Assembly: GCA_000526255.1 (NCBI GenBank)
Contig: JAFS01000002.1
Coordinates: 620,001-684,000, forward strand
Length of the DNA stretch: 64,000 nucleotides
Direction: 5' to 3'
DNA from: Verrucomicrobia bacterium LP2A
Lineage (GTDB): Bacteria; Verrucomicrobiota; Verrucomicrobiia; Methylacidiphilales; Methylacidiphilaceae
Shown: positions 58,655-62,050 of the stretch, piece after piece
Numbering within the stretch: the stretch's first letter is position 1
Layout of the letters: each line of letters starts with the position of its first letter
Program-made: the position numbers and the translations under genes
The notes under the pieces: generated by a model
Database searches by the model: none
Seen by the model: only the letters and a program-made list of their open reading frames with translations
What the model was told of the DNA's origin: nothing

Positions 58655-59497
58655 ATGCCTCTCTCCGGCAACCTCAAGGAAGTGCCTTTTCCCGAAGTCT
58701 TGCGCCTGCTGCGCGATCGAACCGGAACTCTGGAAATCGTGGAGAAGATCACCGGGGATCGCTTTTCGTTCGTCCTTTCGGCGGGGAACCTCGTCTCCGC
58801 TTCCGCGACCGGCCGGCCGATCCCGGACACGCTCGCGCTGCACTCGGTGCTTCAACGGCTTTCGGACGATCCATCGGCTTCCTTCGACTTCGAGGAGAGT
58901 CACATGGGCGAGCGGGTCGGTCCGTTGAGCATCTCCCTCGACCGCATCCTTTTGTCCGCTCTGGCCGCAATCCGGTCTCCGGAACGCTATACGCCCTATC
59001 TTCCGCATCCCGGGACGCGGTTCCGCGCCGAGGCGGAGGCCACCGCGTGGCTGACAGGAGACCTGCTCGCCTTCTGGGACGGCACGGAGCGACTCTTTCG
59101 TTCCGGGATCTCGGCGCAGGAGATCGTCGCTGCCCTCGGGCTCCCGCTGCCGCAAGTCCTGCTCGAGCTTTACAAGCTGCGTCTCTTGGGGATGATTGTC
59201 CCTGTCCAAGCCCAGCCGCCGCCATCCGCGTCGGCTCCCTCCTTGAGTCCCGCGCTTCGCATTCCGGAGCTTCCGCCCGCTCCGGCACCGGTTGGTCCCT
59301 TGCCACCGCAGGCATTGCCCGCCGCCACCCCTGATCCGATTTCACCACCCCCTCGTCCTGCTCCCGTGGCAACGGTTCCGAGCTCCCAGCTGGCAACGGT
59401 TCCTGAGAGCCCAACCAAACCGATCGCGCGCCGACAGGGCGTCTTGGCGCGGATCGCCTCCGGGCTTAGGCGAATTCTCGAAAAAATGTATGAATGA
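58655..59497 (+). CDS. DUF4388 (PATAN-like) protein, first gene of the GTPase-roadblock-globin module
   Basis: 280 residues. Residues about 1-110 contain MPLSGNLKEVPFPEVLRLL, TGTLEIV and a FSFVLSAGNLVSASATG strand, which is the DUF4388/PATAN pattern. Residues 110-185 are a helical region ending QVLLELYKLRLLGMIV. About 185-270 is a proline/alanine/serine-rich disordered linker and the tail ends RRQGVLARIASGLRRILEK, a basic amphipathic helix that could bind membrane. DUF4388 proteins commonly lie near small GTPases and roadblock proteins. The stop overlaps the GTPase start by 8 bp, so the two are coupled. Confidence 0.75.
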   Translation: MPLSGNLKEVPFPEVLRLLRDRTGTLEIVEKITGDRFSFVLSAGNLVSASATGRPIPDTLALHSVLQRLSDDPSASFDFEESHMGERVGPLSISLDRILLSALAAIRSPERYTPYLPHPGTRFRAEAEATAWLTGDLLAFWDGTERLFRSGISAQEIVAALGLPLPQVLLELYKLRLLGMIVPVQAQPPPSASAPSLSPALRIPELPPAPAPVGPLPPQALPAATPDPISPPPRPAPVATVPSSQLATVPESPTKPIARRQGVLARIASGLRRILEKMYE

Positions 59498-59999
59498 AAC
59501 CACGATTAAGATCCTCGTAGCCGGCCCTTGCGGAGCCGGTAAAACGACTTTCATCCGGACCTTGAGTCAATCTCCGGTTGTCAACACCGACGTTCCGTGT
59601 TCCACCGCGAATCGGGCGACGACCGTGGCCATGGACTTCGGCCAGCTTTCCCTCGACCGATACACCATTCATCTCTTTGGCGCCCCCGGCCAGGATCGTT
59701 TTGAGTTTACGTGGGAAGTTCTCCTGGAGGGCGCCTTGGGGGTGCTCCTGCTCGTTTCCGGGAACGACGCCACCCACTTTCCGCAAGTTCGCCGCATCTC
59801 GGACTATCTCCTCTCCCGGAATCCGGTGCCTCTTGTTGTCGGCGTCACGCACCAGGATCATCCCAACTGCTGGGACTGCAAGGAAGTGGCCTCCTACCTC
59901 GATTTGGATCCGACCGAGGTCATCCCCATCGATGCCACCAATCTCGAAAGCGCCAGCGAACTGCTCGTGCGCCTCTTTGACTTGGTGGAACGGGCCTGA
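59490..59999 (+). CDS. Small GTPase of the COG2229/CvnD-like family
   Basis: 169 residues. IKILVAGPCGAGKTTFIRTLS is the P-loop (residues about 12-20), ATTVAMDFGQL is the switch I region, LFGAPGQDRFEFTWEVLL holds the G3 motif with the conserved GQ(D)RF, and VGVTHQDHP replaces the canonical NKxD. The TTVAMDFG pattern and size match CvnD proteins of actinobacterial conservons and the MglA/SRPR-beta-like group. It is followed after 140 bp by a roadblock gene, the usual regulator partner. The G4 variation may lower guanine specificity. Confidence 0.8.
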   Translation: MNETTIKILVAGPCGAGKTTFIRTLSQSPVVNTDVPCSTANRATTVAMDFGQLSLDRYTIHLFGAPGQDRFEFTWEVLLEGALGVLLLVSGNDATHFPQVRRISDYLLSRNPVPLVVGVTHQDHPNCWDCKEVASYLDLDPTEVIPIDATNLESASELLVRLFDLVERA

Positions 60000-60139
60000 G
60001 TCGGCCTCCGAGAGGCTGCAGTTCGCTTACATTTCGCTTGCCAAAACAATCTCGTTCCGATTCAGTGATTGGCTCACGAGGCGTCGGGCTTTGCGCGATC
60101 CGCCCTTGGAACGAAGAAAGCTGAGAAGGGGAGAAGGAT

Positions 60140-60511
60140 ATGGCTATTGCCGAGGAACTGAATACTATTTTAGGCCGGATGCGCACCTCCGTTCCGGAGT
60201 TGAGCGCCGCGCTCGTCGCCACGACCGACGGGCTTCCCATCGCTCATTCGCTCAACTCCGGGGACGCGAATCGCCTAGCGGCAATGGCGGCGACCGCCTT
60301 GGGGCTCGGGCGGCGCATTTGCGAAAGCTTCGGGGGCGGCGGATTTCGGGAGACGAGCGTCTCCGGGGACGAGGGCCAGATGTATATTTATTCGGCTGGA
60401 CCTAAGGCCGTGCTCGGGGTTGTCGCCCGGGCGGGGGCCAACGTGGGGTTGATTCACCTGGAGGCTCGGGATGCGGCCTCTCAGGTCGCACAGATGCTTG
60501 AGCGGCGATAG
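60140..60511 (+). CDS. Roadblock/LC7 domain protein
   Basis: 123 residues, a single roadblock/LC7 domain: an N-terminal helix MAIAEELNTILGRM, the AALVATTDGLPIAHSL hairpin, and GQMYIYSAGPKAVLGVVARAGANVGLI. These dimerise and often act as GTPase-activating or binding partners of MglA-like GTPases. A good GGGGAGAAGG ribosome binding site precedes the ATG. It lies between the GTPase and the globin and its start is clear of both. Confidence 0.88.
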   Translation: MAIAEELNTILGRMRTSVPELSAALVATTDGLPIAHSLNSGDANRLAAMAATALGLGRRICESFGGGGFRETSVSGDEGQMYIYSAGPKAVLGVVARAGANVGLIHLEARDAASQVAQMLERR

Positions 60512-60529
60512 CCGGAGAGGCAGGCGGGG

Positions 60530-61117
60530 ATGGCGTCACATATCGCCGAGGTGACAGAGGACGTTTTTTCGCAGTTGCCTCCGGCCGCTCGCTTCACCGG
60601 GGAGGACGAGGCGCTCTTGCTTCGCCTCGGACCTGGCTTGGCCTCCCTGGAAGATCATCTGGTGCAGGGTTTCTACGATATCCTTTTCGCGCATCCAGAA
60701 ACGGCACGCATCTTGAGCTCGGGCGCCCGGTCGGAACGAGAGAATGCGCTGCGCCGCTGGTGGCGACGCACGCTCGAGGGTCCGTTCGACGCTCACTACT
60801 GGCAGTGGCAGGCGGCCGTCGGCCTCATCCACGTTCGCCAGAACGTGACTAACCCGATGATGATCGGCATGTGGGGATGGATCCTCAATGCCCTTCAGCA
60901 AGCGCTTCTGGAGACTCTGAGGCTTTTGCCTCACGAGGCGGCGCGTGCCATGGAAGCGCTCCATCGCCTGGCTGCCACGGCACAGGCTCTGACCGTGGAA
61001 AGCTATATGCGCCATTATCTCGTTGCCCTTTCTCAATCCACCGGGGTCTCCACGGACCTCATCCAGCGGCTGGTCGCGGTCGAGCTCTCCTCGCTCGATC
61101 CTTCCGCCCAAGCGTAG
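60530..61117 (+). CDS. Protoglobin-like single-domain haem protein
   Basis: 195 residues. The GFYDILFAHPETARILSSG block and VGLIHVRQNVTNPMMIGMW resemble the E and F helices of the globin-coupled-sensor/protoglobin family; H101 in LIHVRQNV is the likely proximal haem ligand. There is no transducer domain and the last 60 residues are helical, so it may be a separate sensor partner. It starts 18 bp after the roadblock gene with a GAGAGGCAGGCGGGG purine stretch. Its ligand (O2, CO or NO) cannot be told. The atp operon follows 93 bp later. Confidence 0.72.
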   Translation: MASHIAEVTEDVFSQLPPAARFTGEDEALLLRLGPGLASLEDHLVQGFYDILFAHPETARILSSGARSERENALRRWWRRTLEGPFDAHYWQWQAAVGLIHVRQNVTNPMMIGMWGWILNALQQALLETLRLLPHEAARAMEALHRLAATAQALTVESYMRHYLVALSQSTGVSTDLIQRLVAVELSSLDPSAQA

Positions 61118-61210
61118 GGACGCCAGGGCTTCTCCGGCCTTTCACCTCTCGATTTTGTCGTGTTTTTTTCTTTGCATTGGCTGCATTCCTCCACTACAGG
61201 AGGATGCTCC

Positions 61211-62050
61211 ATGTTTTTCCTAGCGACAGCCGAGCCCACCAGCCATGCCCCGCTCGTTCATCCAGCGGCGCCCACGCTTTTTCATCTGGGCCCGCTCCCG
61301 ATTACTGCGTCGATGGTCCATAGCTGGGTGATTCTTCTGCTTCTTTTTCTCGTGATCCGCCTGGGAACCGCCCGACTGCAGATGGTGCCCTCGGGCCTCC
61401 AGAACGCGATCGAGGCTGCTGTCGAAGGTTTGGAACGCCTCACGCGAGGTCTCCTCGAGCCCAAGGTCGCCGACTGGTGCTTTCCCCTCGTCGCCACCTA
61501 CTTCATCTTCATCGCGGTCTCCAACCTGACCGGGCTGCTACCCGGTGTCGGCACGATCGGCTTTGGAACCGTGAAGGCTGGCTCGCATTTGCCCTACTCC
61601 GTCGAGCACCCTCACATCTCCCTTTTGCGGCCTCCGACCTCCGACGCGAACATGACGAGCGCGATGGCCGTGATCTACTTCTTCGTGAGTCTCTATTGGG
61701 CTCTCAAGTACCACCACGGCCCCTGGGGCCTCCTCGTGCATATCTTTGGGGTGAAGGGCGGAATGAAGGGATGGATTCTCATCCCGCTCGCGGTCCTCTT
61801 CTTCGCCGTGGGCCTGATGGAAGCCCTTTCGATCGTCATCCGGGCGATCGCGCTGGCGATGCGGCTCTATGGAAACGTTTACGGGGGCGAGTCGGTGCTT
61901 GTGCTTATGACCGGCATGCTCGGCGGGCTCGCGGCTGTTCCGTTTTACTTCTTCGAATTCGCCGTGGCGCTGATCCAGGCCTTGATCTTCGCCCTTCTTG
62001 CGATCGTCTTTACGGGGACTCTTTGCTCCCATGAGGAGTCTCACAAGTGA
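61211..62050 (+). CDS. atpB: F0F1 ATP synthase subunit a
   Basis: Membrane subunit of the proton channel. 279 residues, about six membrane segments. The essential arginine lies in ALAMRLYGNVYGGES and GLMEALSIVIRAI precedes it; the C-terminal VALIQALIFALLAIVFTG is conserved. ATG 61211 has a textbook AGGAGG ribosome binding site 7 bases upstream; the open frame to 61160 is longer but not needed. First gene of the atp cluster here; no atpI precedes it. Confidence 0.95.
   Translation: MFFLATAEPTSHAPLVHPAAPTLFHLGPLPITASMVHSWVILLLLFLVIRLGTARLQMVPSGLQNAIEAAVEGLERLTRGLLEPKVADWCFPLVATYFIFIAVSNLTGLLPGVGTIGFGTVKAGSHLPYSVEHPHISLLRPPTSDANMTSAMAVIYFFVSLYWALKYHHGPWGLLVHIFGVKGGMKGWILIPLAVLFFAVGLMEALSIVIRAIALAMRLYGNVYGGESVLVLMTGMLGGLAAVPFYFFEFAVALIQALIFALLAIVFTGTLCSHEESHK

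Follow-up and report, generated by a model that had tools for sequence, protein, structure and literature searches.

We report that genes for a protoglobin, an MglA-type small GTPase and a roadblock/LC7 protein lie together in the genome of Verrucomicrobia bacterium LP2A, that the same linkage recurs in four phyla, and that the gas-binding protoglobin is probably the input of the roadblock/MglA-type GTPase switch, which would make the set a gas-responsive signalling module.

The four-gene run in the window

The window, by which we mean the whole stretch of 64,000 nucleotides analysed here (contig JAFS01000002.1, positions 620,001 to 684,000), comes from a genome of 2.47 Mb. A first-pass annotation had marked four plus-strand open reading frames in it, with the first two overlapping by 8 bp; all four were present at exactly the coordinates given, and the overlap was confirmed from the stop and start positions, the GTPase start codon (ATG, 59490) preceding the DUF4388 stop codon (59495-59497). 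The run and its flank read as follows.

58655..59497, +, DUF4388/PATAN protein, 280 aa (Pfam DUF4388, conservation in all family members, AlphaFold model)
59490..59999, +, MglA-family small GTPase, 169 aa (Pfam, invariant motifs, structure matches)
60000..60139, +, spacer with a conserved block, 5' of the roadblock gene (six-genome alignment within the genus)
60140..60511, +, roadblock/LC7 (MglB/CvnB-type) protein, 123 aa (PF03259, E = 1.3e-19)
60530..61117, +, single-domain protoglobin, 195 aa, with F8 His101 and B10 Tyr49 (PF11563, E = 1.4e-27)
61211..62050, +, atpB (ATP synthase a subunit), first gene of the ATP synthase operon (PF00119, E = 7.7e-37)

The DUF4388-GTPase-roadblock-globin set was found in 7/7 genomes of the window's genus, which we infer to be Methylacidimicrobium with Methylacidiphilum as its sister genus, in each case upstream of atpB or on contig pieces consistent with that position, and the run is therefore not a chance arrangement. 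Additional globins were present in four of the seven, as a second tandem globin (G001, G002 and G006) or a second roadblock-globin pair (G005); in G005, the first of two tandem globins (L078:7239-7828) is frameshifted, carries Asp in place of the proximal His and appears to be a decaying duplicate. The sister genus keeps the order ThrB-NadC, then DUF4388-GTPase-roadblock-atpB, without a globin, its two globin relatives both lying outside the cassette, and in a third genus DUF4388-GTPase-roadblock stands at the end of a contig. Among 289 Verrucomicrobiota, no protoglobin near a roadblock gene was found outside the window's genus. The globin is thus an optional part of the cassette, an obligate role being ruled out by its absence in Methylacidiphilum, at the Deinococcus plasmid loci examined and at three cyanobacterial GTPase loci.

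Between the GTPase and roadblock genes, a block at approximately 60029-60046 (ACATTTCGCTTGCCAAAA) is conserved in the alignment of six genomes of the genus and is a possible promoter, operator or regulator site; promoter and terminator scans of the run returned matches at chance level only. A hairpin (TCCTCC-ACTACA-GGAGGA, 61187-61204) spans the Shine-Dalgarno sequence of atpB and is mostly kept across the genus, which suggests that atpB is under translational control.

Sequence and structure of the encoded proteins

The GTPase of the window matched ATP_bind_1 (E = 6.6e-14) and Arf (E = 2e-7) in Pfam, both above the cut-off, and its nearest characterised structures were Arf and MglA. Its motifs are a P-loop GPCGAGKT, Thr44-Thr45, a G3 GAPGQ and a G4 THQD. 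In common with Groups 2-5 of the MglA/MglB systems (Wuichet and Sogaard-Andersen 2014, PMC4316618), it has a GxPGQ-type G3 without Asp (GAPGQ is invariant), a Thr rather than an Arg beside the G2 Thr (T44-T45 is invariant), a coupled roadblock/MglB homologue, found nearby in the window and in family members, and a nearby PATAN protein. It differs in its invariant THQD, which is not the [NT]KxD of the Group 5 G4, and a G4 without Lys has been described for Groups 2 and 3 (PMC4316618). The roadblock protein matched Robl_LC7 above the cut-off, contains an invariant Asp-Gly pair (D30-G31) and matched the CvnB5 structure 3leq.

The DUF4388 protein consists of a PATAN-like domain, a helical winged-helix-like region, a disordered Pro-rich linker and a basic amphipathic C-terminal helix. 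Its Pfam DUF4388 score in the window (20.4 bits, E = 5e-4) lies under the cut-off of 25, its Pseudoxanthomonas counterpart scores 25.7 bits, and the cyanobacterial counterparts reach 91-97 bits (E = 1e-25 to 1e-28). The basic C-terminal helix noted in the first-pass annotation is predicted by the AlphaFold model at residues 263-279, past the disordered linker, and its copy in the window is amphipathic (muH 0.77; shuffle p 0.011). A Foldseek search with this model gave no significant match.

The globin matched the Protoglobin family well above threshold (97.1 bits against a cut-off of 25), and its AlphaFold model (pLDDT 82) was closest to the AfGcHK globin (TM 0.85 by target), followed by 8h17 (Tlr1989), GsGCS and HemAT. 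With the residue roles of AfGcHK, which we take to be a proximal F8 His and a distal Tyr, as reference, His101 aligns with the haem-ligating F8 His, as the earlier assignment of a likely proximal His101 had it, and Tyr49 with the distal Tyr; both residues are invariant in the 14-row globin alignment (A5), and F8 His and B10 Tyr are kept together in 38 of the 39 linked globins. Because these residues are conserved and the fold fits, haem binding by the linked protoglobins is a well-supported prediction. The proximal His is missing from the linked globin of the gammaproteobacterial genome G525, so haem would be dispensable in some cases; this protoglobin-family protein beside a GTPase (L137:2058-2606) resembles in its lack of an F8 His the non-haem globin domain of RsbR. 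The window protein shares with globin-coupled sensors such as AfGcHK and HemAT a homologous globin domain, the F8 His and B10 Tyr and the best structural match, but it is single-domain, and an output would have to be reached in trans.

Linkage of globin, GTPase and roadblock genes in four phyla

Conserved co-localisation in distant genomes, proposed earlier as a check, was found in Verrucomicrobiota, Deinococcota, Pseudomonadota and Cyanobacteriota, and this recurring linkage bears out the view that the globin belongs with the GTPase/roadblock pair. Four Thermus plasmids carry DUF4388-GTPase-(roadblock)-protoglobin as annotated, and those of T. thermophilus SNM1-7 and T. oshimai JL-2 have DUF4388-GTPase-roadblock-protoglobin in the exact order of the window. 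The T. oshimai JL-2 cluster continues with a gene for an EAL protein, and a globin relative lies outside the cluster in T. oshimai; T. brockianus has DUF4388-GTPase-protoglobin variants, then EAL and HD-GYP genes. A third globin-like protein of the T. brockianus cluster (L254:7099-7695), annotated as hypothetical, is weakly similar to the AfGcHK globin domain. At the Deinococcus plasmid loci examined, the cassette is present and the globin absent.

Scanning with the GTPase alignment revealed DUF4388-GTPase-roadblock-protoglobin, ordered as in the window, in Pseudoxanthomonas sp. z9 and the like-ordered cluster in a near relative from its order (2/250 genomes overall). The GTPase occurs in 79 and a protoglobin in 36 of these 250 genomes; four contain a GTPase-protoglobin pair no more than 2 kb apart (G321, G356, G330 and G525), and G388 adds a fifth pair split over contig ends, with roadblock-globin opening one contig. 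Two further arrangements are thereby represented in gammaproteobacteria, one by G330 with the contig-split G388 and one by G525. In 299 Pseudomonadota genomes, a search for globins of the window type found only globins within larger open frames. No globin of a large open frame was found to be linked.

Among 263 cyanobacterial genomes, 27 had a protoglobin match and 23 the GTPase (E < 1e-50). A protoglobin was present in 22 of the 23 genomes with the GTPase versus 5 of the 240 without it (Fisher p = 2.9e-26, a value inflated by phylogenetic relatedness), and at 23 of 26 GTPase loci it lay within 2.5 kb, together with a roadblock gene and usually DUF4388. Linked globins made up 23 of the 30 single-domain cyanobacterial globins and none of the three in large frames. 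The gene order is globin-roadblock-GTPase-DUF4388 in unicellular types and roadblock-GTPase-DUF4388-(157 aa)-globin in other cyanobacteria, with a divergent arrangement in Hyella. Tlr1989, whose structure is solved (PDB 8h17), shows 100% identity to the cluster globin of Thermosynechococcus (L177) across the 165 residues that were compared; like the window protein, it is a single-domain protoglobin-family protein encoded beside roadblock, GTPase and DUF4388 genes, but it belongs to another globin clade, is only ~23% identical to the window protein and stands in another gene order. Directly 3' of the DUF4388 gene of that cluster is a hemerythrin gene (PF01814, E = 2e-14; L177:7544-7951), encoding a second O2-binding protein there. 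At a Nostocales-type locus, a kinase and a response regulator adjoin the cassette. Several cyanobacteria, and Deinococcus as well, encode with the GTPase-roadblock cassette an uncharacterised protein of ~157 aa with the conserved Cys motifs VCFKA, TVCSAGE and KCTFTLGAVWG (L196:4949-5419, L257:6032-6508 and L259:5971-6441); it matched no Pfam family significantly and is possibly a further sensor component.

The linked globins fall into three supported single-domain clades: the first unites the window type, Thermus and G330/G388 (20 rows, 13 of them linked, support 99), the second the Pseudoxanthomonas type with one cyanobacterial member, and the third is the Tlr1989 type. The GTPase tree places the window's family with Pseudoxanthomonas, apart from G330 and the cyanobacteria; its rows L096 and L117 repeat the genes L123 and L137 under a mistaken unlinked label, so that the true label changes are fewer than the tree shows. 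Both trees come from quick searches and have long branches, so that their branching details are unsure, but they are incongruent, which indicates that the pairing arose more than once; with one globin clade joined to different GTPase clades and vice versa, mere co-inheritance is hard to accept.

A globin-roadblock fusion within the family

HGbRL of Methylacidiphilum infernorum is a globin fused to a roadblock/LC7 domain (Teh et al. 2015, PMC4476040), for which a ligand-dependent motion reaching the roadblock domain was proposed; the same authors remarked on an MglA-like GTPase with its roadblock partner (ACD84469/ACD84470), to which the pair in the window very likely corresponds. HGbRL resembles the window's set in coupling a haem globin to a roadblock domain within the same bacterial family, and differs in that its globin, of the HGbI type, is part of a fusion protein whose gene is not linked to that of the GTPase, whereas the window has a separate protoglobin in the GTPase operon. 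In the window, globin and roadblock are separate open reading frames; a single protein with an N-terminal globin and a C-terminal roadblock domain occurs in the sister genera only and is absent from the window's genus, which has the operon protoglobin instead, so that the two distributions are complementary. That a single family joins globin and roadblock in two unrelated ways speaks for a functional connection. HGbRL was called unique to Methylacidiphilum in 2015 (PMC4476040), and we observed an HGbRL-like fusion also in the third genus (G008, L083:5057-5896).

Discussion

In the mechanism that we favour, the protoglobin would bind haem and a diatomic gas (O2, NO or CO), and its ligand state would be passed to the roadblock protein, most likely by direct contact. 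The roadblock protein, which is MglB/CvnB-like, would regulate the MglA-type GTPase as a GAP or scaffold, and the GTPase would act with or through the DUF4388 protein, a putative effector, anchor or exchange factor with a helical tail; this basic amphipathic helix at the C-terminus would probably serve for docking, either to the membrane or to a partner. As cited in PMC13343842, the CvnB-type roadblock protein MfpD is a GAP in a mycobacterial/actinobacterial relative, in which MfpC is probably a GEF. Gene linkage in itself does not give the direction of signalling. The adjacent EAL/HD-GYP, response regulator and hemerythrin genes hint at differing outputs and at O2 as a plausible ligand. Against this mechanism speak the Methylacidiphilum cassette, which is kept without a linked globin in a genus that has two unlinked relatives, the broken globin copy of G005 and the lost proximal His of G525. 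That protoglobins, as stand-alone proteins acting in trans, govern the roadblock/MglA-type GTPase cycle across the four phyla, as a general function of many single-domain protoglobins, has in our estimate about an even chance.

There is a small chance that the globin is instead an enzyme or scavenger (NO dioxygenase-like or O2-buffering) that is co-regulated with the GTPase module and sends no signal to the GTPase. An archaeal protoglobin shows nitrite-reductase and peroxynitrite chemistry in vitro (PMC4020757), and the globin relatives outside the cluster in Methylacidiphilum and T. oshimai would suit such a role; yet across phyla the globins are linked specifically to the GTPase/roadblock cassette, with single-domain globins alone showing this linkage, no gene for a reductase partner was seen, and a globin-roadblock fusion exists.

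Direct control of ATP synthase by the module, through which these methanotrophs would match their ATP production to the O2 available, we regard as improbable. In both genera with an available flank, atpB comes immediately after the cassette, and the scan found no terminator-like site between the globin gene and atpB; elsewhere, however, its neighbours are EAL and HD-GYP genes (Thermus), hemerythrin (Thermosynechococcus) or a kinase and response regulator (Nostocales-type). The adjacency to the ATP synthase operon pointed out in the first-pass annotation is thus real here but common only to the window's genus and its sister genus; being confined to Methylacidiphilaceae, it does not define the module, ATP synthase is ruled out as a general defining partner, and atpB is probably a neighbour rather than a part.

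No better are the prospects of a merely co-transferred cassette in which globin and GTPase are functionally unconnected. Such a cassette would fit the plasmid location in Thermus and Deinococcus and the rarity of the Pseudoxanthomonas type within its order, but different globin clades are paired with different GTPase clades, the set is retained despite gene-order changes across cyanobacteria, and co-occurrence is near-obligate.

A true conservon (actinobacterial G-protein system, AGPS; CvnA-D, PMC13343842) with its kinase replaced by a globin, as had been suggested, is very improbable and membership was rejected, because, although the operon likewise joins a roadblock protein and a small Ras-like GTPase homologous in kind, with a G4 lacking the usual Lys as in conservon GTPases, to a sensory input (here putatively a stand-alone globin), the defining parts are missing, with no match to a CvnA-type histidine kinase or to DUF742 (CvnC) in Pfam searches of the four genes and atpB, the GTPase is nearer to plasmid-encoded homologues of Thermus (52-53% identity, tblastn) and Deinococcus (47-51%) than to the Streptomyces type (33-38%), and in the sister genus the cassette lacks kinase and globin alike.

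The GTPase-roadblock-PATAN association (PMC4316618, a survey in which a globin is unmentioned) and the HGbRL fusion were already known, and no description of the linkage of protoglobin, GTPase and roadblock was found in the open papers and small share of preprints searched: no text there joins protoglobin and roadblock, the works pairing protoglobin with GTPase are by title and abstract unrelated to the module, and no named system with this exact set is described there, in agreement with the first-pass annotation.

For most of the single-domain protoglobins sampled from cyanobacteria, as for relatives from Methylacidimicrobium, Thermus and Gammaproteobacteria, the neighbouring genes encode a roadblock protein and an MglA-type GTPase, which gives single-domain protoglobins with solved structures, including Tlr1989, a concrete and testable partner. 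If the proposed mechanism is true, bacterial Ras-like GTPases, whose inputs are poorly known, would have a new type of input in a haem gas sensor; a small-GTPase switch may then be under the control of a dissolved gas, a likely role for these globins.
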